DNA of 44,094 nucleotides, taken from positions 1 to 44,094 of the forward strand of contig JACYLN010000042.1 in NCBI GenBank assembly GCA_015272515.1, written 5' to 3'. Source of the stretch: Leptolyngbyaceae cyanobacterium C42_A2020_001. GTDB taxonomy: Bacteria; Cyanobacteriota; Cyanobacteriia; Leptolyngbyales; Leptolyngbyaceae. This document shows, one piece after another, positions 7,113 to 33,154 of the stretch. Each line of letters starts with the position of its first letter. Within the stretch, counting starts at the first letter, position 1. The translations under genes and the position numbers were made by a program. The notes under the pieces are model-generated. The model worked only from the letters and a program-made list of their open reading frames with translations. It made no database searches and was not told the DNA's origin.

Positions 7113-7205
7113 CTCTATGAAGAGGGTAAAAGAACGCAGGTATGGTGATAAGAGGTAGGATGAACGAGGGATTGCGATCGCCCAATTCTGCCGGAGGGAG
7201 CACTC

Positions 7206-9740
7206 ATGGAACGGCTGGAGAAAGTTTGTTGGCTGCGGGAGAACACGATCTTTGGCTCTTTATCTGATGGGGTGCTGGCAGCGATCGCAGATGCCATTCA
7301 GGAGCAAGTCATTGCAGAGAATCGCCGTATTGTTCTGGAAGATACCCATCCAACTGGTCTCTACATTCTCAAGGCAGGGCGGCTAGAAAGCTATCGCACC
7401 AGCCAAACAACCACCGCTCAGGCAGTGGGTTTATTACCCGGTGCCGTGTTTCACCTGAAAGAATTGTTGCTGGATCAGGTGGCGGAGCAAACGGTGATCA
7501 CGCTATCAGAATGTACGTTGTGGCTGATCCCGCGAGAGGCATTTCTGTCATTAGTGCAGCAGCATCCTGAAATCTCTCAAACGTTTTCGCGGCAACTTGC
7601 GACGGAACTGAGTCAGATTTCAACCCAACTGGCATACGAACGGGAACGCCAAACGGCTCTGCGTCCTTACCTGGTGCCGAAAGTGAAGCGAGGCATTGTG
7701 GGAACCAGTCGTTATGCGGTGCGGCAACGGCAGGAAATTCGCAAAGCTCAGGGCGATCGCGGTTCGGTGCTGATTTTTGGCGAACCAGGTTTGAGTAAAG
7801 ACAATGTGGCGGCGTTGATTCATTTTGGGTCGAGCGATCGCCATGAGCCGATGATCAAAATTAACTGTGAAACCTTGCAAGCAAGCGGGGCCGAGTTATT
7901 TGGACGCGCAGGTGGCAAACCTGGACTGTTGGAATGGGTGGGCAGAGGTAGCGTACTACTCAACAATCTGCAAGATCTGAATCCAGCGTTGCTCGACAAG
8001 CTTGTAACACTGCTCAAAACGGGTGAGTACACCCCGGTTGCTCGCGAAGGCGAACCCCTTCCCCAGCCCCGAATCTGTGAAGCCCGAATTTTAATGAACT
8101 CTGAGCGCACCTTACCTGCCCTGGAACAAAAAGGGTTGGTCGAGCACATCATCAAGGTGGCTCCATTGCGGGTTCGCAAAGCAGACATTGCCGCGCAAGT
8201 TGAGTACTACCTGAGCTTATTTTGTCGGCAGCGGGGCATCCCCAAACCCACCATTACTCCAGAAGCGATCCGGCGACTGCAAGGCTATGATTTTCCGGGC
8301 AACCTCACCGAATTAGAAAGCCTGGTGGAACGAGCCGTCATTCAACTCAATGGAGCAAATGAATTAACGGAGGAAGTTTTCTGGGCACCGAGTAATAAGA
8401 GTAGGCGCTTCCGCCTGAATCTGCTAAACAGCTATCCGCGGTTGCGGCAGTTTCTTCGCAGTCCCTGGTATCCCGATCGCCTCAACTATGGCATCACCTT
8501 TGGTTTATTTGCTGTGGTGGTTGCCGTGTTGATGTTGGGACCGCAAAGTCGCGATCGCAACGTTGCCCTCAATCTATTTTGGGCATGGTGGTGGATGCTA
8601 ATTTTAGTCGCGTTTCCCTTTGTCGGGCGCTTGTGGTGTGCGGTATGCCCCTTCATGATCTACGGCGAAATCGCGCAAAAAATTTCCCTCTGGCTCTATC
8701 CCCGCAAACTATTGCCCTGGCCGCGGCAAGAAGCTGAGAAATGGGGCGGTTGGTTTCTGTTTGGCATGTTTGCCCTAATTTTGCTGTGGGAAGAACTCTG
8801 GGATCTGGAAAACACTGCTTACTTATCGGGCTGCCTACTGTTGCTGATCACAGCGGGTGCAGTGATCTTTTCACTGTTGTTTGAACGGCGATTTTGGTGC
8901 CGCTACCTTTGCCCCATCGGTGGCATGAATGGGCTGTTCGCCAAGTTATCGATCACAGAACTGCGTGCCCAGCAGGGAATTTGTTCTGCCACCTGCACCA
9001 CTTATCAATGCTATAAAGGCGGACCGCAGAAAGGCGAAGGGCAAGAAACCAACGGTTGTCCGCTTTATTCCCATCCAGCTCAATTGGAGGATAATCGGGA
9101 TTGTGTGCTGTGTATGACTTGTCTCAAAGCCTGTCCTCATCGCTCTGTGGAACTGAATCTGCGTCCACCGGGGATCGAGCTATGGACAACGCATACGCCC
9201 AGCTATTACGAAGTTTGCCTGCTATTTTTGCTATTTGGAGCCGTGTTTTTGCATCGGTTGCCCGAAATTGAAGCGGAGCTACAAACCGCACTGCATTTAG
9301 AAAATTTTGGTTGGCATACGGGTGTGTCTGTGCTGGCGCTGCTCATACCTGGCGCGATCGCTCTCCTTGCCCATTGGTTCATCCGCTTATTGAATCGCAC
9401 CATCAAGCCCCGTCCTTTCCTGGAACTCGCCTACGGCTACTTGCCCTTAGTTTTGGGAGCGAATTTGGCGCATTACTTGCGATTGGGTTTAACCGAAGCA
9501 GGGCGGATTATCCCCGTGACTTTTGCCACGTTTGGCTTGGGTACAGCTAACTTGCCCGTCGCGATCGCTCACCCAGCAGTCATTTCCTTTTTGCAGGCAG
9601 TCTGTTTAATTTCTGCTTTTTGGCTCAGCGTTATCTTGACTCAAAAAATTGCTCGTCAGCCTATCGTCAATCTATTGCCGCAGCATTTGGCCATGGCTGG
9701 AGTAGGTTCCTTAATCTGGAAAGTGGTTATAGGTTGGTAG
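7206..9740 (+). CDS. cNMP-binding-like / sigma54-type AAA+ / membrane polyferredoxin fusion
   Basis: An 844-residue multi-domain protein. Residues about 10-135 resemble a cyclic-nucleotide-binding (Crp-like sensor) domain. Residues about 163-390 resemble the AAA+ domain of sigma54 activators, but it is degenerate: the P-loop reads GEPGLSKD (192-199), the Walker B position reads SVLLNNL (249-255) without the Asp-Glu pair, and the segment that should hold the GAFTGA loop is shortened (ELFGRAGGKPGLLEWV). No C-terminal Fis-type HTH is present. Instead residues 425 onward form a NapH/NosR/RdxA-like membrane module: helices at about 427-445 and 457-475, CAVCP (478-482), CRYLCP (565-570), further cysteines at 593, 597, 602 and 618, then a ferredoxin motif C633-x2-C-x2-C-x3-CP and three or four more helices. 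It probably senses or passes electrons at the membrane; DNA or sigma54 binding is unlikely. GGAGG precedes the ATG. Confidence 0.8.
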   Translation: MERLEKVCWLRENTIFGSLSDGVLAAIADAIQEQVIAENRRIVLEDTHPTGLYILKAGRLESYRTSQTTTAQAVGLLPGAVFHLKELLLDQVAEQTVITLSECTLWLIPREAFLSLVQQHPEISQTFSRQLATELSQISTQLAYERERQTALRPYLVPKVKRGIVGTSRYAVRQRQEIRKAQGDRGSVLIFGEPGLSKDNVAALIHFGSSDRHEPMIKINCETLQASGAELFGRAGGKPGLLEWVGRGSVLLNNLQDLNPALLDKLVTLLKTGEYTPVAREGEPLPQPRICEARILMNSERTLPALEQKGLVEHIIKVAPLRVRKADIAAQVEYYLSLFCRQRGIPKPTITPEAIRRLQGYDFPGNLTELESLVERAVIQLNGANELTEEVFWAPSNKSRRFRLNLLNSYPRLRQFLRSPWYPDRLNYGITFGLFAVVVAVLMLGPQSRDRNVALNLFWAWWWMLILVAFPFVGRLWCAVCPFMIYGEIAQKISLWLYPRKLLPWPRQEAEKWGGWFLFGMFALILLWEELWDLENTAYLSGCLLLLITAGAVIFSLLFERRFWCRYLCPIGGMNGLFAKLSITELRAQQGICSATCTTYQCYKGGPQKGEGQETNGCPLYSHPAQLEDNRDCVLCMTCLKACPHRSVELNLRPPGIELWTTHTPSYYEVCLLFLLFGAVFLHRLPEIEAELQTALHLENFGWHTGVSVLALLIPGAIALLAHWFIRLLNRTIKPRPFLELAYGYLPLVLGANLAHYLRLGLTEAGRIIPVTFATFGLGTANLPVAIAHPAVISFLQAVCLISAFWLSVILTQKIARQPIVNLLPQHLAMAGVGSLIWKVVIGW

Positions 9741-22171: not shown

Positions 22172-23962
22172 TCAGTACTGACTGGCGGATTTACGGTGGT
22201 TGATGGCAGTTACGCCCGTTGCTTCCAGCAATTTGCCGTTATCAACCTGGGCATACAGCAACCAGTGGTCGCCACAGTCCATCCGGTTTTGCACAGTGCA
22301 CTCTAGATACGCCAGAGCATCGGTTAGGATCAAGCAGCCGTTGCTAGCGGGAGAGGTGGCAACATTTTCAAACGGGTTCTCGCTAGGCGTGGGCGGTTTC
22401 AGGAAGTAGCGCCGCACGTTTCTGCCCTCTTTGAGGATATTGAGAACGAATTGATCGCCAATGTGAGCGATGCTTTCTTCGATGTGTTCTTTGGCAACTG
22501 AGATGGTGAGGGCGGGAGGGCTAAAGCCTGCCTGAGATACCCAGGAAGTTAAAAAGCCATAGTGGTTCTTACCGCTTCGCATGGTGACCACGCTCAACGA
22601 TCCGGTAACTCTGCCCACTGCTTGACTGGTGCGATCGCTCTGGGCATCGGTTACCATTTGACGCGGGGCACGCACTTTCTTCACGCGGTTGAGGGTGCGG
22701 GCAAACTCGGCTCCTGCGGTTTCGCATTGCTGCAAAGTTTCTTCTGTTGGCGCAAACTTCACCCGAATCGTTTCAAACCCTAACCGATAACCTGCGTCTT
22801 GCAATTTGCTCTCCACCAGATCCACCGCTTCGCCACTCCAACCAAAGGAGCCAAACACACCCGCCACTTTGGTTTGGTTTGCCGTAGAAAGGACAATTCC
22901 CAACGCGGTTTGAATCTGTGTTGGCGGGTGCCCTGCTAGTGTGGGAGTGCCAATAATGAACCCGTCGCATTCTTGCACGGCAGTAGTAATGGCTTCTGGG
23001 CTGACAAATTCACAGTTGATGGTTTGCACGGCAACGCCAGACTGGGTAATGCCCTTTGCGATCGCTTGTGCCAACGTTGCCGTATTGCCGTAGGCAGAGG
23101 TGTACAACAGAACAGCCCGGAGTTCTTTCTGTTGCTGTTGCTCACACCAGCCCTGATACTCTAGCGTCAGCACACTCACACTATGCCGCACAATTGGACC
23201 ATGCCCCGGCGCGTAGATTTTAGCTTTGAACAGCGCCAACTTTTCCAGGGCGGCTTCAACCTGGGGAGATTGGGCGGCATGGATGCAATCAAAGTAGTAG
23301 CGCCGGTCTTCATCCAGGGTTTTCCAGTGTTCGTCAAACACAGAATCATCGCAAACATGCGCCGCAAATACCTTATCGGTATAAAGGATGCGACTTGCTG
23401 GGTCATAAGTGCTGATCGCATCGGGGTGGCGTGGGGTTGGCACAAACCGAAACTGGAGTTCGTGCCCGTTGCCCAAGTCCAGCACTTCCTCATCTCGCAC
23501 AATGTGAACCTTGAGGGTTTGGTTCGCACCGTATTCAATGCCGAGATCCTGGGCTTCGTCTTCGCGGGGCGAGGGAATGTTGAAAGCCTGATTAGCAAAC
23601 ACCGATCGCAGGGTATTCGCTCCAGGTTTGGAACAAATCACCGTGGCGTAGGGAGCTGCTTCCAACAGTCGTTTGAGCGTGGCAATGCGGTTGGGGTTGA
23701 CGTGGCTGAGGATAATGTAGTTGAGGCGTTGGTAATAGACATGATGCCCCAGTTCTTCCAGGAACAAGTCGGTAAACGATTCGCCAGGTGGATCAATCAG
23801 CGCAACACTTTGTCCCTGGATCAGGTAGGAGTTTGCAGTTGTCCCTTTTTGGCGGGCGTACTCCACCTCAAACTTGAGCCGATCCCAGGTGCGCGATCGC
23901 AGTACTGTCGTGTTTACACCAATCTCAGCGACTTGAACATCACGAGGTTTGAAGTCAACCAT
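22172..23962 (-). CDS. flv1: Flavodiiron protein, Flv1 type
   Basis: A 596-residue class C flavodiiron protein with three domains: metallo-beta-lactamase-like (about 30-270), flavodoxin (about 282-425, LLYTSAYGNTATLAQAI) and flavin reductase (about 448-596, VGRVTGSLSVVT). It works with an Flv3-type partner to reduce O2 to water behind photosystem I. The diiron site is degenerate: the canonical HxExDH reads HVNPNR (87-92), and FVPTPRHPD (173-181) replaces the second ligand block, which is the known signature of the Flv1/Flv2 side of the heterodimer. Compared with the Flv3 partner in this window it has an insertion of about 17 residues at 130-148. Assignment as Flv1 rather than Flv2 rests on the nearby Flv3 and absence of an sll0218-like gene. 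Confidence 0.82.
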   Translation of the reverse strand: MVDFKPRDVQVAEIGVNTTVLRSRTWDRLKFEVEYARQKGTTANSYLIQGQSVALIDPPGESFTDLFLEELGHHVYYQRLNYIILSHVNPNRIATLKRLLEAAPYATVICSKPGANTLRSVFANQAFNIPSPREDEAQDLGIEYGANQTLKVHIVRDEEVLDLGNGHELQFRFVPTPRHPDAISTYDPASRILYTDKVFAAHVCDDSVFDEHWKTLDEDRRYYFDCIHAAQSPQVEAALEKLALFKAKIYAPGHGPIVRHSVSVLTLEYQGWCEQQQQKELRAVLLYTSAYGNTATLAQAIAKGITQSGVAVQTINCEFVSPEAITTAVQECDGFIIGTPTLAGHPPTQIQTALGIVLSTANQTKVAGVFGSFGWSGEAVDLVESKLQDAGYRLGFETIRVKFAPTEETLQQCETAGAEFARTLNRVKKVRAPRQMVTDAQSDRTSQAVGRVTGSLSVVTMRSGKNHYGFLTSWVSQAGFSPPALTISVAKEHIEESIAHIGDQFVLNILKEGRNVRRYFLKPPTPSENPFENVATSPASNGCLILTDALAYLECTVQNRMDCGDHWLLYAQVDNGKLLEATGVTAINHRKSASQY

Positions 23963-24751: not shown

Positions 24752-27700
24752 TTACTCAATGCCTTCGATCCGGTCTTCTACTTCCTGGTACAGCTCACGC
24801 AGGCGATCGAGGTTGGCTTCGCTGGTGTCCCAGTAGCCGCGACCATTGGCTTCCAGCAGGGTCGTCACCATCTTGCGGAAGGAGTTGGGGTTAAGGTTCA
24901 TCAACCGTTTGCACATTTCTTCGTCTTTGAAGAAGGTGGTGTTGGTGTCCTCATACACCCAGTTATCGACCGCATCTGCGGTTGCCGACCAGCCCATCGT
25001 GTTGACCAACCGCTTCGACAGTTCCCGCACTCCCTCGTAACCGTGGGAGAGCATCCCCTCGTACCATTTGGGGTTCAGCAGTTTGGTGCGAGAGTCGAGC
25101 CGGATGGTTTCTGACAGGGTACGAATCTGGGCGTTGGCAGTGGTGGTGTCTGCCATGTAAGCGGCAGGCTTTTTGCCATCATCCCGCAACCGCGCCACGA
25201 TCTTGGTGGGGTCAGAGTCGTAATAGTGGGAAACATCCGTCAGCGAGATCTCCGACGAGTCGAGGTTCTGGAAGGTGACATCGGCTGTTTTCAAGGATGC
25301 CTTAAACAGATCCTCGCTTTGCTCCATCATGCCGGGGCTATCAGAAGAGAAAGCAAAGCCCTTCCGGGAGAGGTACATATTTTGCAGTTCCTCTTCGTTT
25401 TCCCAAGTGCCGTTTTCCACCGCCAGGTTGATGTTGGACGAGTAGGAACCGGAAGCGTTGGAGAAGACGCGGGTGGCTGCCTGCCGTAGGGATAATCCCA
25501 TTTCTTCCGCCTGTTTGAGCGCGTGCTTGCGAACAAAGTTCATTTCCAATGGCTCATCAGCTTCCGCTGCCATTTTCACGGCTTTGTCGAGCAGTGCCAT
25601 CTGGTTGATAAACAGGTCGCGGAACACCCCGGAGCAGTTGATGACTACATCCACACGGGGGCGACCCAATTCTTCCAGCGGAATCAGTTCCAGCTTGTTC
25701 ACTCGCCCTAATGAGTCGGGAACAGGCTTGACACCAACCATCCAGAGAATTTGGGCAAGAGATTCGCCGTAGGTCTTGATGTTGTCGGTGCCCCAAAGGA
25801 CGCAGGCAATGGTTTCGGGATAATTGCCGCCGTTTTCTGCTGCCTGCCGTGCCAGCAGGCGATCGACCACGACCTTTGCCGATTTGACAGCGGCGGCTGT
25901 GGGGATGGATTGGGGATCGAGGGCATGGATGTTTTTGCCAGTAGGCAGTACATCAGGGTTACGGATGGGATCACCACCGGGACCGGGCTGAATGTATTGA
26001 CCATCCAATCCAATCAGCAATGCGCCCAGTTCGTTATCGGCAACGACCTGCTTGAGGCAGAACTGGAGGTACGCAAACAAGGGCGTAAGGGCTTCTGTAT
26101 CTACCTGGTTGTAGCCCAGATGATGCAGTGCTTCGACCCAGGGTTCTTTTTTGTTGCCGAAACTGAACAAGTTACCCAACATGGAGGTTCTGGAGACGCG
26201 CCCTTCTTCGTCAATTTGGGCGTGCACCATGGCCGTTACCGCTGCGCGGACTGCCTGATTGATGCTGTTCAACAGGCTGACATCTTCCAACACGCCCCGA
26301 TCGCTGTTGGCGTAAATTTCGTCAATGTCGCGGTTGATGCTGTTGGCAATGATCCGTTGCAGGCTAAGGATGCTGTCTTCCTCCCGATCCAGTCCGGCAA
26401 TGTTGACCAGCGTGGCGATCGCTTCCTCCGCACTGGGGGGTTTGCCAACGACGTGCAGCCCGCAGGGCAACAGGCGAGATTCGATCTCCATCAGCTTGAT
26501 ATAGACTTTGCCAACGATGGTATCGCGCTCCTCTGAGGTCATGTCAGCAGCGCTGGCTTCCGGCAAGTCCACATCCTTATCCAGGTTGCAGAGTCGGGCT
26601 TTGTCCATAATCGTATCGACGATCTGGGCACCCCGTCCCGTATCTTTCAAGGTCTGGTAAGAGCCGATCAGTTCGCTCAGTTCTTTCAACCCCTTGTACA
26701 ATCCAGCATTTTCAGCGGGAGGGGTGAGATAACTAATGGTTTCGGCATAGCTGCGCCGTTTGGCGATCGTCGCTTCCGAGGGGTTGTTTGCCGCGTAGTA
26801 GTAGAGGTTGGGAATCGTGCCGATCAGGCTATCGGGGAAACACTCGCCCGACATGCCAATCTGTTTACCGGGCATGAACTCCAGCGACCCATGAGTGCCA
26901 AAGTGCAACACAGCATCTGCCTGCCAAATACGTTCCAGGTAAGTGTAGTAGGCGGCGAACCCATGATGGGGACTGGCAGAACGGGAGAACAGCAAGCGCA
27001 TGGGGTCGCCTTCGTACCCGAAGGTGGGCTGCACACCGATGAACACATTGCCAAAGGATCTGCCATACACCAGCAGGTTTTGCCCATCAGTATTGAGGTT
27101 GCCAGGAGGCGGACCCCAGGAGGGAATCAGGCGATCGCTGTAAGGAGTTAACCGCTCATACTCCTCAACCGACATTTTGTAGGCGACATTGAGTTCAGGG
27201 CTGTTGTACTGCGCCTGGGCATTGTGCAGCACTTCTAGCATCAACTTTTCCGGATCGTCGGGCAAACCTTGCACGTCATAGCCGTTGTCGCGCAAGGCTT
27301 CCATCACTTTGTGAATCGAGCCGAACACATCCAGGTAAGCTGCCGTACCGACATTGCCTTTGTCCGGTGGGAAGCTGAAGACCGTGATGGCAACCCGCTT
27401 GTGGAGCTTGGGTTTGCGCCGCAGGTTGGCCCATTTCATCGCCCGTTGGGCGATCGCTTCTACCCGGTCTTGCAGGGCGATCGCTTTCCCAGTTGCCCCA
27501 TCTCGACCAGAAAGAATAATCGGTTCAATCCCGCCATCCAGTTCCGGCAGGGCGATTTGCAGGGCTACCTGAATTGGGTGCAGTCCCAACTCACTTTCTT
27601 GCCACTCTTCCGTGGTTTGGAACACCAGCGGCAACGCCACCATGTAGGGACGGTTCAACCGCTTCAACGCTTCTACAGCTTTGGGATGATCTTGTCGAGC

Positions 27701-28753
27701 GGGTCCACCAACGAGGGCAAACCCCGTGAGGGAAACCACCACATCCACAATCGGTGTGGTTTTGCTGATGGGGTCATAGAAGAACGCATCTACAGGTTTA
27801 GAAAAATCCAGTCCACCCGCAAACACCGGAATCACCCGTGCGCCCATCGCTTCCAGTTCCGACACCATCGCAACATAGTGGGCATCATCCCCAGTGACCA
27901 GGTGAGTTCGCTGCAACACCAACCCCACTGTCGGCACCAGTGGATCTTTCATATCGTCCGAGATGTCTTTGCGGGAGTTGAACCAATTGAGATATTCTTT
28001 GACATCCTCAAACATCTGGGTTGCCATGGGGTGCCAGATGCCCAAATCGGGGAATGTCTGCGGATCGGCGTATTGAATTGGTGCCAGACTTTCTGCTGTG
28101 TCGCCCTCATTCTTGAACACATACTGATCTGCCAGCATCAGCAGGAAGTTTTCCAGGTTCTCGGCATTACCGCCCAGCCAGTATTGAAAACTGAGCATGA
28201 AGTTCCGGGCATCCTGCGCCTTTTCCACTGGCAGATATTTGAGCACGGTAGGTAGGGTGCGGAGCAGTTTCAGCATGGCATCCTGAAATCCGGCTCCTGA
28301 CTTCTCCTTGCGCTTCTTCATGAAATTGGCAATCACACTCTTGGACTGCCCAATTTGCGACAACGAGAAGCTGCCCATCTTATTCAGACGCATCACTTGC
28401 GGCATCGAGGGGAAGACTACAGCTACATCCAGGCGATCGCGATAGGGTTCCACCGCTGCCACCAACTTGTCTGCCAGGTCTTCCAGAAAGATCAGCGATG
28501 CAATGAAGATATTGGCCTGTGCCACATCCCGCTTGAAGTCTTCGTAGTTATCGGCATCCCGCAGTTCTTCAATCAGGTATCCGCTGATTTCAACGGCGAT
28601 GCTGGGGTGATGGTCATTAATCGAACGAACAGCAGCAGAGAGAGAGCTTTGGTATTGAGGCTCTAGCACGACATAGACCACTTTTACCAGGCGACGACCC
28701 CGCAGGTCTTCTGGGGCGATGTGCCGGATGGTGGGCTTGACGTGAGTGAACAT
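24752..28753 (-). CDS. chlH: Magnesium chelatase subunit H
   Basis: The 1333-residue protein is the large, porphyrin-binding subunit of Mg chelatase, which with ChlI and ChlD inserts Mg into protoporphyrin IX at the branch to chlorophyll. Length and sequence match cyanobacterial Chl[18 protein letters not shown] at the start, [38 protein letters not shown] (a conserved His-containing block), [20 protein letters not shown] and the C-terminal [11 protein letters not shown]. The ATG at 28753 has AGGAG nine bases ahead; an in-frame start at 28780 is less likely. The overall frame is intact. It lies between the two flavodiiron genes, and all three read on the minus strand. A cobaltochelatase CobN is excluded by the closer match to ChlH at both ends. 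Confidence 0.95.
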
Positions 28754-29356
28754 GCGGTTAGGCTCCTTTGATGTGATCAAGAGCGGTCATTGTCAGCGAC
28801 GATTCGTTGCAGATCATGCTTTGCCCATTTCTACAAATTGGTGTAGAAAACGCAACAAAGAACAAACTGTGAATCGTAAGTAACAGGTGTGTTAACTGAC
28901 CGCAGTGAAACGTTGCACAAATTTGTTTGTACCAGAAAAGCGTTAGCAGATGGGCATTCTGGCTCTTAACCGACACAATTTGATAAAAAGACAGAAATTT
29001 TAATTCATATTTGTTTGCATTTTTGAGAAGCATTTACTCGCAATAAATTTGCAAAACTTAACAATTTCTTTGTTTCGCCTGACTGATTCAATTGGGAGAT
29101 CTCTTAAAGTACCGACAAATCCTATATCGCCCTCATCTCTAATCTTTCTCCCAGTGCTGGGCTGCGGGTACACAAATCTCGGTTTCGTCTAGAAATTCTA
29201 CCGGGGGGAAGCCCCCCGCCCCCCGCTTTTTGGGGTCCTAACTCCCGTTCGGCTGAACTCACGTCGAAGCTCAACCCCCCAAAAAAAGTCTCTGTAAAAG
29301 CTGCTCAACTCTGTGGGAGACGTTATTGGATAGTCTGAGATCTCTCCATAGGGAAA
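28754..29356. other. Intergenic region upstream of chlH
   Basis: About 600 bases free of credible genes. The half nearest chlH is AT-rich and should hold its promoter and a long leader. The half near 29200 holds a GC-rich hairpin and a C-rich tract. Beyond 29356 a dispersed repeat begins. Confidence 0.4.
29203..29217. repeat. GC-rich hairpin GGGGGG-AAG-CCCCCC
   Basis: Six G (29203-29208) and six C (29212-29217) flank AAG. It is followed on the plus strand by a second C-run, GCTTTTTGGGG, giving a nested GC stem and a T tract. Read on plus it could end a transcript, but no plus-strand gene lies upstream; more likely it is a mobile-repeat remnant or palindrome. Confidence 0.4.
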
Positions 29357-31188: not shown

Positions 31189-32916
31189 TTAGTAATGATT
31201 GCCGACTTTGCGATGGTGAACCGCTGTTAGCCCATCCGGTTTAGAGACCCGTCCCACATCAACGGTGCTGTACACCACCCAGTGATCGTCGCCTTCCATC
31301 CGGCTCACCACTTCACATTCCAGGTATGCCAGGGCATCGGCTAAAATTGGCGATCCGTTTGTCGCTGCGTAGGTTTTGATGCCTGCGAAGCGATCAGCTC
31401 CGGGCGGAAAGCGCTTGAGGAAGTGCTTCATTAAGGGTTGATAGTTGCCTTCTTCCAGCACGTTCAGCACAAAGCGATCGCCCGCGTGCATGAAGGATTC
31501 AATTGCTCGATCTTTGGCCACGGCAATCGTGATGCCCAACGGTTCTAAACTGGCTTGAGACACCCAGGATGCCAGCATGGCGCTGGAAGCTCCGCCCTTT
31601 TTCGCCGTAATAATGTATAGCCCGCCACTGATTCGACCCAGTGCCTTATCGAGGTCATTGTCGAGCGATTTCATTTGCTTGATGCTGCGATCGCGGGTTA
31701 GCCATTGTCCCAGGTCGGTGCCCGCCTCTTCACACAGTTGATAAGTCGCTTCCGTTGGGGTTTCTTTAATCAAAATGGGTGCAAACGCTTCGGTTACGCC
31801 AATTCCTTGCAACTTGTTCCGCAGCGGATAGACCGATTCATCGTCACCCCCACCGGACTCAAACAAGCCGAACGCCTGCTTGGAGTGCGTCGCTGCCAAA
31901 ATGGTACTCAGCAATGCATTTGTTTGCGCCGCTGCACTGCCCGATTGAGGTGGCATTCCGATCACAATCCCAGCAGCAATGTCCACCAGTTCCCGAACTT
32001 CTTGCGCGTCTACTTCCAGCAGGTCAACCAGTTCGACGACCACATCCGTTTTGGCGATGCCTTGAGCGATCGCGTGCGCCAGGCGATCGCTACAACCATA
32101 TTCCGACACATAAAACAAAGCCACCGTCGTCGCAGCTTTTGCCTGTTCCTGGCTCCAGGTGCGGTAGCGTCCCACCAGTTCGGGAATGTGATGGTGCAAT
32201 AGCGGTCCGTGCCCCGTGGCGATGGTGGTAATTGGTGGCAAATCTGCCATGCGCTTGAGGGCTGCCAGCACCGAGCGAGCATTGGGACCCATTAAGCAGT
32301 CGTAGTAAGTTTTATAGTCTGCATCGAGCAGTGCCAAATCTTCGTCGTAGGTTTGATCGTCGCAGTAGTGCATCCCAAACACGTCACAGGTGAAGAGGGT
32401 TTGCGTCCCGTGGTCGTAGGTAAGAATGGTGTCGGGCCAATGCAGATTGGGGGCAGAGACGAACTCTAACTCGTGCCCGTTGCCTAAATCCAGGCGATCG
32501 CCGCTTTTCACCAACTTGCGAGTAAACGGTTGATGCACCAAATCATCTAAAAACTGCATCGCCACTTTTGCGCCCACCACCGTAATGTTGGGATTGAGTT
32601 GCAATACATCTTTGACCAAGCCGCTATGGTCGGGTTCGGTGTGGCTAATGATCAAATAATCAATCTCTTGCGGGTCGATTAGCTCGGTCAACGCCTCCAG
32701 ATACAGCGATCGAAACTTTTCGTGGGAAGTGTCTACCAGTGCTACCTTTTCGCCGCGAATTAGAAACGAGTTATAGGTGGTGCCGTTTTCCAGGGCAAAC
32801 TCGATGTCGAAGCGATCGCGATCCCAATCGAGCGAGCGAATGGTGGTTGTGTCAGCAGCGATTTCAACCGTTTGTGTTGTAAGCCGGGTTTGGGGCTTTT
32901 CTGTGAGTGCGACCAT
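31189..32916 (-). CDS. flv3: Flavodiiron protein, Flv3 type
   Basis: A 575-residue class C flavodiiron protein: metallo-beta-lactamase domain with canonical diiron ligands (HTEPDH at about 90-95, then the NLHWPDT block and DVFGMHY), a flavodoxin domain (VALFYVSEYGCSDRLAHAIAQG) and a flavin-reductase domain (LGRISGGLYIITAKKGG). It is the catalytically normal half of the Flv1/Flv3 photoprotective O2-reducing pair and uses electrons from photosystem I. The start is the ATG at 32916 (MVALTEKP), as GGGAGG lies six bases ahead; a TTG two codons earlier is not needed. The Flv1-type partner lies 7 kb downstream on the same strand beyond chlH. Flv4 is the alternative, but no Flv2-Flv4 operon gene is seen. 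Confidence 0.82.
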   Translation of the reverse strand: MVALTEKPQTRLTTQTVEIAADTTTIRSLDWDRDRFDIEFALENGTTYNSFLIRGEKVALVDTSHEKFRSLYLEALTELIDPQEIDYLIISHTEPDHSGLVKDVLQLNPNITVVGAKVAMQFLDDLVHQPFTRKLVKSGDRLDLGNGHELEFVSAPNLHWPDTILTYDHGTQTLFTCDVFGMHYCDDQTYDEDLALLDADYKTYYDCLMGPNARSVLAALKRMADLPPITTIATGHGPLLHHHIPELVGRYRTWSQEQAKAATTVALFYVSEYGCSDRLAHAIAQGIAKTDVVVELVDLLEVDAQEVRELVDIAAGIVIGMPPQSGSAAAQTNALLSTILAATHSKQAFGLFESGGGDDESVYPLRNKLQGIGVTEAFAPILIKETPTEATYQLCEEAGTDLGQWLTRDRSIKQMKSLDNDLDKALGRISGGLYIITAKKGGASSAMLASWVSQASLEPLGITIAVAKDRAIESFMHAGDRFVLNVLEEGNYQPLMKHFLKRFPPGADRFAGIKTYAATNGSPILADALAYLECEVVSRMEGDDHWVVYSTVDVGRVSKPDGLTAVHHRKVGNHY

Positions 32917-33154
32917 GAACAACCTCCCGACGAGTCAAATAATGAAAAATTAAAAATGAGAAATCAAAAGCGTAAAACTTTGTTCTACTCCCTATCTTGA
33001 CGGTCTATTCAGTTTTTGTAAAGTTTTGTTAGGTAAACTTACTTATTAGCTGTACTTATAATTTTTTTGTCGTAAATTTTACTAATTTAATGATTCGAGC
33101 ACTCTTCATGGGTCAAGTGCCAGACTCAAATTAACTTTTCTGCCAACGCACTGC

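Follow-up and report, generated by a model that had tools for sequence, protein, structure and literature searches.

The window analysed here is a stretch of 44,094 nucleotides from Leptolyngbyaceae cyanobacterium C42_A2020_001 (contig JACYLN010000042.1). It contains a gene for an 844-amino-acid (aa) protein that joins, from the N to the C terminus, a cyclic nucleotide monophosphate (cNMP)-binding-like domain, a AAA+ domain of the sigma54-activator type, the lid of that domain, a NapH-like membrane polyferredoxin and additional membrane helices (Table 1). Four Pfam families, PF00027, PF00158, PF25601 and PF12801, each exceed their own cut-off in this protein. Among its Pfam matches to E 1 there is no helix-turn-helix (HTH) family, and the iron–sulphur part occupies the usual place of the HTH, as a preliminary description of the window had proposed.

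Table 1 Features of the 844-aa gene and its upstream region (residues, protein numbering; coordinates, window numbering)
Feature	Coordinates	Strand	Evidence or remark
844-aa gene: cNMP-like domain, pseudo sigma54-activator AAA+, NapH-like membrane polyferredoxin	7206..9740	+	Open reading frame, Pfam, relatives
Putative ribosome-binding site, GGAGGGAG	7193..7200	+	Read in the sequence; role suggested by spacing, 5 nt to ATG
cNMP-binding-like domain, residues 36–120	7311..7565	+	PF00027, E 4.6e-13
Sigma54-activator-type AAA+, residues 164–300	7695..8105	+	PF00158, E 1.7e-12; PDB sequence relatives NifA, PspF, NtrC1
Remodelled P-loop GEPGLSKD, residues 192–199	7779..7802	+	Group-A conservation
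GAFTGA loop gap, about residues 235–239	7908..7922	+	8-residue gap in alignment with NifA
Walker-B position, Asn253-Asn254 replacing Asp-Glu	7962..7967	+	Group A: N253 102/102, N254 100/102
Arginine-finger segment deletion, residues 310–311	8133..8138	+	9-residue gap relative to NifA
AAA+ lid, residues 322–383	8169..8354	+	PF25601, E 3.7e-12
NapH/MauN-like membrane polyferredoxin, residues 421–662	8466..9191	+	PF12801 (residues 545–581, E 5.3e-9); TIGR02163 50 bits, below cut-off
CxxCP motif at membrane helix, C478 and C481	8637..8651	+	Invariant, 40 aligned sequences
CxxxCP motif, C565 and C569	8898..8915	+	Invariant, 40 aligned sequences
First cluster motif (putative), Cys593/597/602/618	8982..9059	+	Invariant, 40 aligned sequences
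Second cluster motif CxxCxxCxxxCP, Cys633/636/639/643	9102..9134	+	Invariant, 40 aligned sequences; weak Fer4 matches below cut-off
C-terminal membrane helices, residues 663–844	9192..9737	+	Helices in models; shared with stand-alone Deinococcus 4Fe-4S protein, 32% identity

In an AlphaFold model of the full protein (mean predicted local distance difference test (pLDDT) 76, predicted template modelling score (pTM) 0.48), the AAA part resembles the structures of NtrX, PspF, NtrC1 and FleQ; the membrane half modelled by itself reaches a pTM of 0.75. Twelve cysteines of the iron–sulphur module are invariant in the 40 aligned sequences. The preliminary description called this module NapH/NosR-like; it is nearer to NapH and MauN than to NosR, no flavin mononucleotide (FMN)-binding family being present among the Pfam matches of the protein. 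Of 112 group-A rows, 18 have Arg at position 95 of the cNMP part, a position that we equated by eye with the conserved phosphate-binding Arg of CRP; in group B, Arg is not among the commonest residues there (groups defined below). In one group-B protein (L118), residues 41–174 of the cNMP part give a weak match to the model of the family 2B encapsulin shell (E 7.6e-6, 25 bits, cut-off 400), probably through the common cNMP fold.

A widespread fusion protein in three subfamilies

A genome scan for relatives gave 316 encoding stretches, of which the best 80 (63–82% identity) were retained. The fusion lies in a single open frame in all 80, and its group-B version is also found open in two named plasmid records. 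The fusion protein is widespread in its class. By protein search, relatives are found in 204 of 386 genomes of the phylum, many of them as weak matches that span only the AAA or the iron–sulphur part, and a copy like that of the window was counted by hand in about 77 of the 386. A group-B profile matches 293 of 388 class genomes, weak matches included. A few copies in the 386-genome sample are split or stopped: those of G133, G257 and G342 are in two pieces, and G116:C175 has one in-frame stop.

The family falls into three subfamilies: group A, to which the window protein belongs; group B, a paralogue 39–42% identical; and group C, which is found in a small-genome family (f19) and lacks the cNMP domain. 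In a tree of 28 A, 20 B and 12 C rows, with the A and B rows drawn randomly, the B rows cluster together, and so do the C rows (100/100 for each); A is not one clade, and C may arise within it. In the window's own genome the group-A copy stands alone as the one full match, with a weak match of 22 bits elsewhere. In four group-C loci of one genus (L134, L136, L141 and L142) a Fur/Zur-like gene, named by eye, lies directly downstream; we rejected this as a conserved pairing, as it comprises only four loci of one genus.

That this might be an unnamed cyanobacterial family had been suggested at the outset, and this is supported: of the group-B plasmid members, one is annotated ‘nitrogen assimilation regulatory protein’ and another ‘cyclic nucleotide-binding domain-containing protein’. 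A literature search, which reached few subscription papers, gave no recognisable description of the family. In the accessible part of a review from 2026 on redox signalling in cyanobacteria (PMC13421787), the terms cyclic nucleotide, AAA and polyferredoxin do not occur, and in those of PMC5776472 and PMC8002359 none of ‘cyclic nucleotide’, ‘cysteine’ and ‘4Fe-4S’ occurs. A candidate AAA–polyferredoxin fusion from the proteobacterium Ciceribacter thiooxidans (match 357–659) was discarded; by eye, the stretch consists of an FTR1-like permease and, after it, a polyferredoxin, with no AAA domain.

A AAA+ domain remodelled under selection

Motifs were counted in 160 distinct sequences (102 of group A, 46 of B and 12 of C; 170 rows with duplicates). 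The group-A count results from merging identical cores among 112 rows, and two partial targets (L197 and L198) and three split frames (L138, L141 and L157) were omitted. GAFTGA occurs in none of the 170 rows and none of the 160 distinct sequences, and the catalytic Walker-B Glu in none of the 160. Homologues with both motifs intact, which were sought as a refutation of the loss, were thus not found in this set. In the window protein, the segment deleted at residues 310–311 is what we take to be the arginine-finger segment of NifA, and the sensor-II Arg is not conserved, with Thr368 in its place.

The P-loop of group A is remodelled rather than lost. Residues G192, E193, P194, K198 and D199 are each present in 102/102 distinct sequences and G195 in 101/102, giving the pattern GEPGL[E/G/S]KD as against GESGTGKE in NifA; position 197 is Gly in 37 of the 112 rows, duplicates counted. 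E300 is likewise fixed (102/102). In group B, GxGK is present in 46/46 sequences and followed by Thr in 45/46, the first classical Gly being Ala in 30/46; the Walker-B Asp survives in 23/46, and in place of the Glu all 46 have Asn (40), Gln (5) or His (1). Group C keeps the Walker-B Asp in 9/12. Of the proteins scanned, two from B and two from C, each still matches PF00158 or PF14532 above the cut-off. The loss of motifs may have been stepwise, the P-loop of B still being close to canonical and that of A and C remodelled, and for group B nucleotide binding without hydrolysis is plausible. The invariance of P-loop residues would favour the binding of some ligand, which in group B would most plausibly be a nucleotide. 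The preliminary description had called the domain broken at every functional motif; this holds for GAFTGA, whose segment it had correctly described as deleted, and for Walker B, whose acids it had correctly reported missing, and goes too far for the P-loop, with its K198 in group A and its GxGK in group B.

The breakage of the motifs follows a fixed pattern that is under selection. The ratio of non-synonymous to synonymous substitution rates (dN/dS) was taken from 122 close group-A pairs of 0.88–0.98 identity (121 pairs for the cNMP part). Its median is 0.032 for the iron–sulphur part, 0.090 for the AAA domain with its lid (maximum 0.149), 0.126 for the last helices and 0.213 for the cNMP part, the least conserved. 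Among 81 sequences, 24 of 161 AAA positions and 22 of 73 lid positions are invariant. The low dN/dS of the AAA domain and lid indicates that a catalytically dead AAA domain is under purifying selection, and the earlier suggestion that the domain is kept, and not decaying, is borne out.

Sigma54 itself is effectively absent from the host lineage, as had been assumed. Of 145 class genomes, two have a PF04552 match. The matches span no more than 38 and 33 of the 160 model positions, in open frames 94 and 58 aa long, and one of them is over the cut-off; both were taken as chance. PF04552 has no match in the window's genome, and PF04963 has none in 18 genomes, the window's among them. According to the accessible part of PMC3162934, all 29 cyanobacteria with genome sequences by 2011 lack sigma54 and its activators. 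The AAA part described here is therefore an activator-type remnant in organisms thought to be free of such activators. Two distant relatives in the phylum that do not belong to the class (L154 of G106 and L155 of G325) each carry one protein with two tandem sigma54-activator AAA+ domains, the first of which in L154 reads GETGTGKE, GAYTGA and VFLDE; neither PF04552 nor PF04963 matches in these two genomes.

Gene neighbourhoods of groups A and B

The genes near the window gene encode a group-1 glycosyltransferase, a 134-aa open reading frame without a family and a class-V aminotransferase. No Nap genes are present among the 15 window neighbours searched. Further along the window lie two genes for flavodiiron-type proteins with ODP, flavodoxin and flavin reductase domains (22172–23962 and 31189–32922, both on the − strand), with a CobN/Mg-chelatase gene (24752–28780) between them.

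Neighbours were counted by profile within 9 kb of 48 group-B loci, 18 control A loci and 80 other A loci, some A and B loci sitting on short contigs. One locus, L164, was dropped because it apparently lies on the same plasmid as L166 (both 174,751 bases). All control A loci except that of G493 (17/18) come from genomes that also have a group-B copy. At least 8 of these 18 sit on contigs equal in length to that of one of the 80 other A loci and are probably identical with it, which makes the two controls interdependent. Names in the set of 12 families that was counted come from Pfam matches of one representative each (PALP for cysK, Pyr_redox_2 for SQR-like, Rhodanese, Rieske/PetC, the lactamase-B fold and ArsR), from two annotated plasmid records, which name cysteine synthase, cytochrome b6-f iron–sulphur protein and photosystem Q(B) protein, and, for the remaining genes, from sequences read by eye.

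The group-B setting is one of sulfide, persulfide and low-oxygen metabolism, together with cysteine synthase. The cysteine synthase gene cysK is present at 32/48 B loci, 0/18 control A loci and 2/80 other A loci. It is on the same strand as the group-B gene in 32/32 and within 3 kb in 31/32 cases, its frame starting within 150 nt of the end of the gene in 24/32 (hand count), and the cysK-positive loci are spread over 14 of 16 family bins, with labels typed from the genome-scan lists. Other members of the set, with counts in the same order, are rhodanese (15/48, 0/18, 1/80), petC (10/48, 0/18, 0/80), SQR-like (9/48, 0/18, 1/80), psbA (7/48, 0/18, 0/80), TauE, persulfide-dioxygenase-like, cydA and cydB (each 6/48, 0/18, 0/80), ArsR (6/48, 0/18, 4/80), heme oxygenase (5/48, 0/18, 0/80) and hemN (4/48, 0/18, 0/80). 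At least one gene of this set is found at 40/48 B, 0/18 control A and 8/80 other A loci, and at least two at 29/48, 0/18 and 0/80. Redox-gene neighbours, which the preliminary description proposed to look for, were found for the paralogue, in a sulfide and micro-oxic setting that it had not seen; for group A no conserved neighbour was found. For the window protein itself, a role in sulfur or low-oxygen metabolism would follow by paralogy only.

Some of the same gene kinds have been studied together. In the accessible part of PMC12466478, polysulfide raises pdo, rhod, tauE and cysK2 in Synechococcus PCC 7002 and sqr falls; the four induced kinds also occur at group-B loci. The accessible part of PMC5061849 describes sqr with arsR, and sqr close to a micro-oxic psbA in some genomes. 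At two group-B loci (L121 and L122) the gene lies among heterodisulfide-reductase-like and ferritin-like genes, named by eye, and these loci also have an SQR-like and a rhodanese gene by profile.

Proposed function and known systems

The reading to which we give an even chance is that of a membrane iron–sulphur electron-transfer protein with a non-hydrolysing pseudo-activator as its nucleotide or assembly regulator. The protein would be a membrane-bound electron-transfer protein related to NapH, its N-terminal cNMP-like and AAA+ part presumably cytosolic and the AAA+ domain a non-hydrolysing pseudo-ATPase. Electrons would move between the [4Fe-4S] clusters and either a quinone or a soluble reductant. 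The pseudo-AAA+ domain, as a switch that binds a nucleotide or a partner or as a ring for assembly, would control how active the membrane part is. We infer topology, cofactor number, the direction of electron flow, nucleotide binding and the regulatory link from sequence and models. The fusion protein probably ties the redox or sulfur state of the cell to membrane electron flow, and probably does not switch genes directly. For the window's copy, we infer a likely biochemistry and not a pathway.

Several observations weigh against this reading. In group A, the P-loop Lys is followed by Asp in place of Thr, and neither of the Walker-B acids is left; the AAA part is shortened further in one group-C genus (L134, L136 and L142); and the cNMP part, which group C and some group-A copies lack (five of the latter match only from about residue 124–139), cannot be essential across the family. 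TIGR02163 matches residues 472–650 with 50.3 bits against a curated cut-off of 213. The membrane half has no match to solved structures at E ≤ 0.001, and the cluster region is poorly modelled (pLDDT below 50 in both models), within a full model of pTM 0.48. A haem site in the C-terminal helices was considered and is unsupported, its conserved His not being retained in every group. As to neighbours, group A has no conserved one, the largest neighbour cluster being found in 15 of 117 family loci, and 8 of the 48 B loci have none of the 12-family set (two of these are on contigs shorter than 7.1 kb). That set was picked after viewing the B loci, with profiles made from B-side genes, which is why the A loci serve as a control; the B loci are also kin by descent, so that Fisher values are optimistic.

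Four other explanations were weighed. The first, which we think unlikely, is that the protein is a plain membrane electron-transfer subunit whose AAA+ domain is a ligand-free dimer or ring scaffold. The stronger conservation of the iron–sulphur part than of the AAA part (dN/dS 0.032 versus 0.090), the missing Walker-B acids and the shorter AAA domain in one group-C genus would all suit a scaffold; however, it would have no obvious need of the G192, K198, D199 and E300 fixed in group A, or of the GxGK and Thr of group B. The second, which we think quite improbable, is a membrane-anchored transcription regulator working with sigma70. TyrR and VpsR function without sigma54, TyrR is the top-scoring NCBIfam model for the window protein (81 bits, cut-off 576), VpsR is among the PDB relatives, and one group-B record carries a regulator annotation; against this, the membrane module stands where the HTH would be, no HTH family is matched in Pfam to E 1, and group C additionally lacks the cNMP domain. 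The third, that the AAA+ domain is a decaying, functionless passenger, is very improbable: the catalytic residues are gone in 160/160 sequences and one group-C genus shows extra shortening, but the dN/dS values of the 122 group-A pairs are low throughout, the replacement residues are invariant and the domain is present in all of the best 80 relatives, and for group A we reject neutral decay on dN/dS. Finally, a frame or assembly error fusing two genes, for which nothing speaks at the window gene and only a few split copies in other genomes, is refuted by the same open fusion in 80/80 relatives from different assemblies and in the two group-B plasmid records, and has next to no chance of being right.

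The proposal of a regulated membrane electron-transfer protein can be taken further, in a form that is speculative and that we consider doubtful as a whole: that a sigma54-type AAA+ domain without hydrolysis or sigma contact is an adenylate or ligand sensor directly gating transmembrane iron–sulphur electron flow, and that the sister form of group B is a redox component, and not only a regulator, of a cyanobacterial route from sulfide or persulfide to cysteine in sulfidic, micro-oxic habitats. On the main reading, the family would be a widespread case in which the ATPase of an enhancer-binding protein has persisted without sigma54 through a change of job. The group-B loci also point to a membrane redox protein, undescribed in the literature searched, that has cysteine synthase beside it and SQR-like, rhodanese, psbA and petC genes close by in the sulfide islands of cyanobacteria, where sulfide may be linked to photosynthetic electron flow.

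Comparison with known systems sets the two halves of the protein apart. Its AAA+ domain and lid are like those of the sigma54 activators PspF, NtrC1, NifA, NtrX and FleQ by sequence and by model. Unlike them, it has no GAFTGA, Walker-B acids, arginine-finger segment or HTH, its organism has no sigma54, and it is fused to a membrane iron–sulphur module. Five defining features were tested and none was found, and the window protein is therefore not a sigma54 activator; it is probably not a DNA-binding regulator either. NosR and NirI presumably share with it a general resemblance, that of a polyferredoxin in a multi-helix membrane protein, whereas the window protein lacks, by Pfam, their FMN-binding domain. 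The accessible part of PMC8238504 calls extracytosolic flavinylation strikingly underrepresented in Cyanobacteria. Stand-alone 4Fe-4S proteins of about 390–450 aa, annotated separately and without a cNMP or AAA+ part, resemble the C-terminal half: haloarchaeal ones are 23–26% identical to it, and that of Deinococcus ficus is 32% identical over 93% of it, the last helices included. From NapH and MauN the window protein differs in scoring far under the family cut-off and in its extra C-terminal helices and large N-terminal part; with them it has in common the membrane helices, the CxxCP and CxxxCP motifs and the two cluster motifs.

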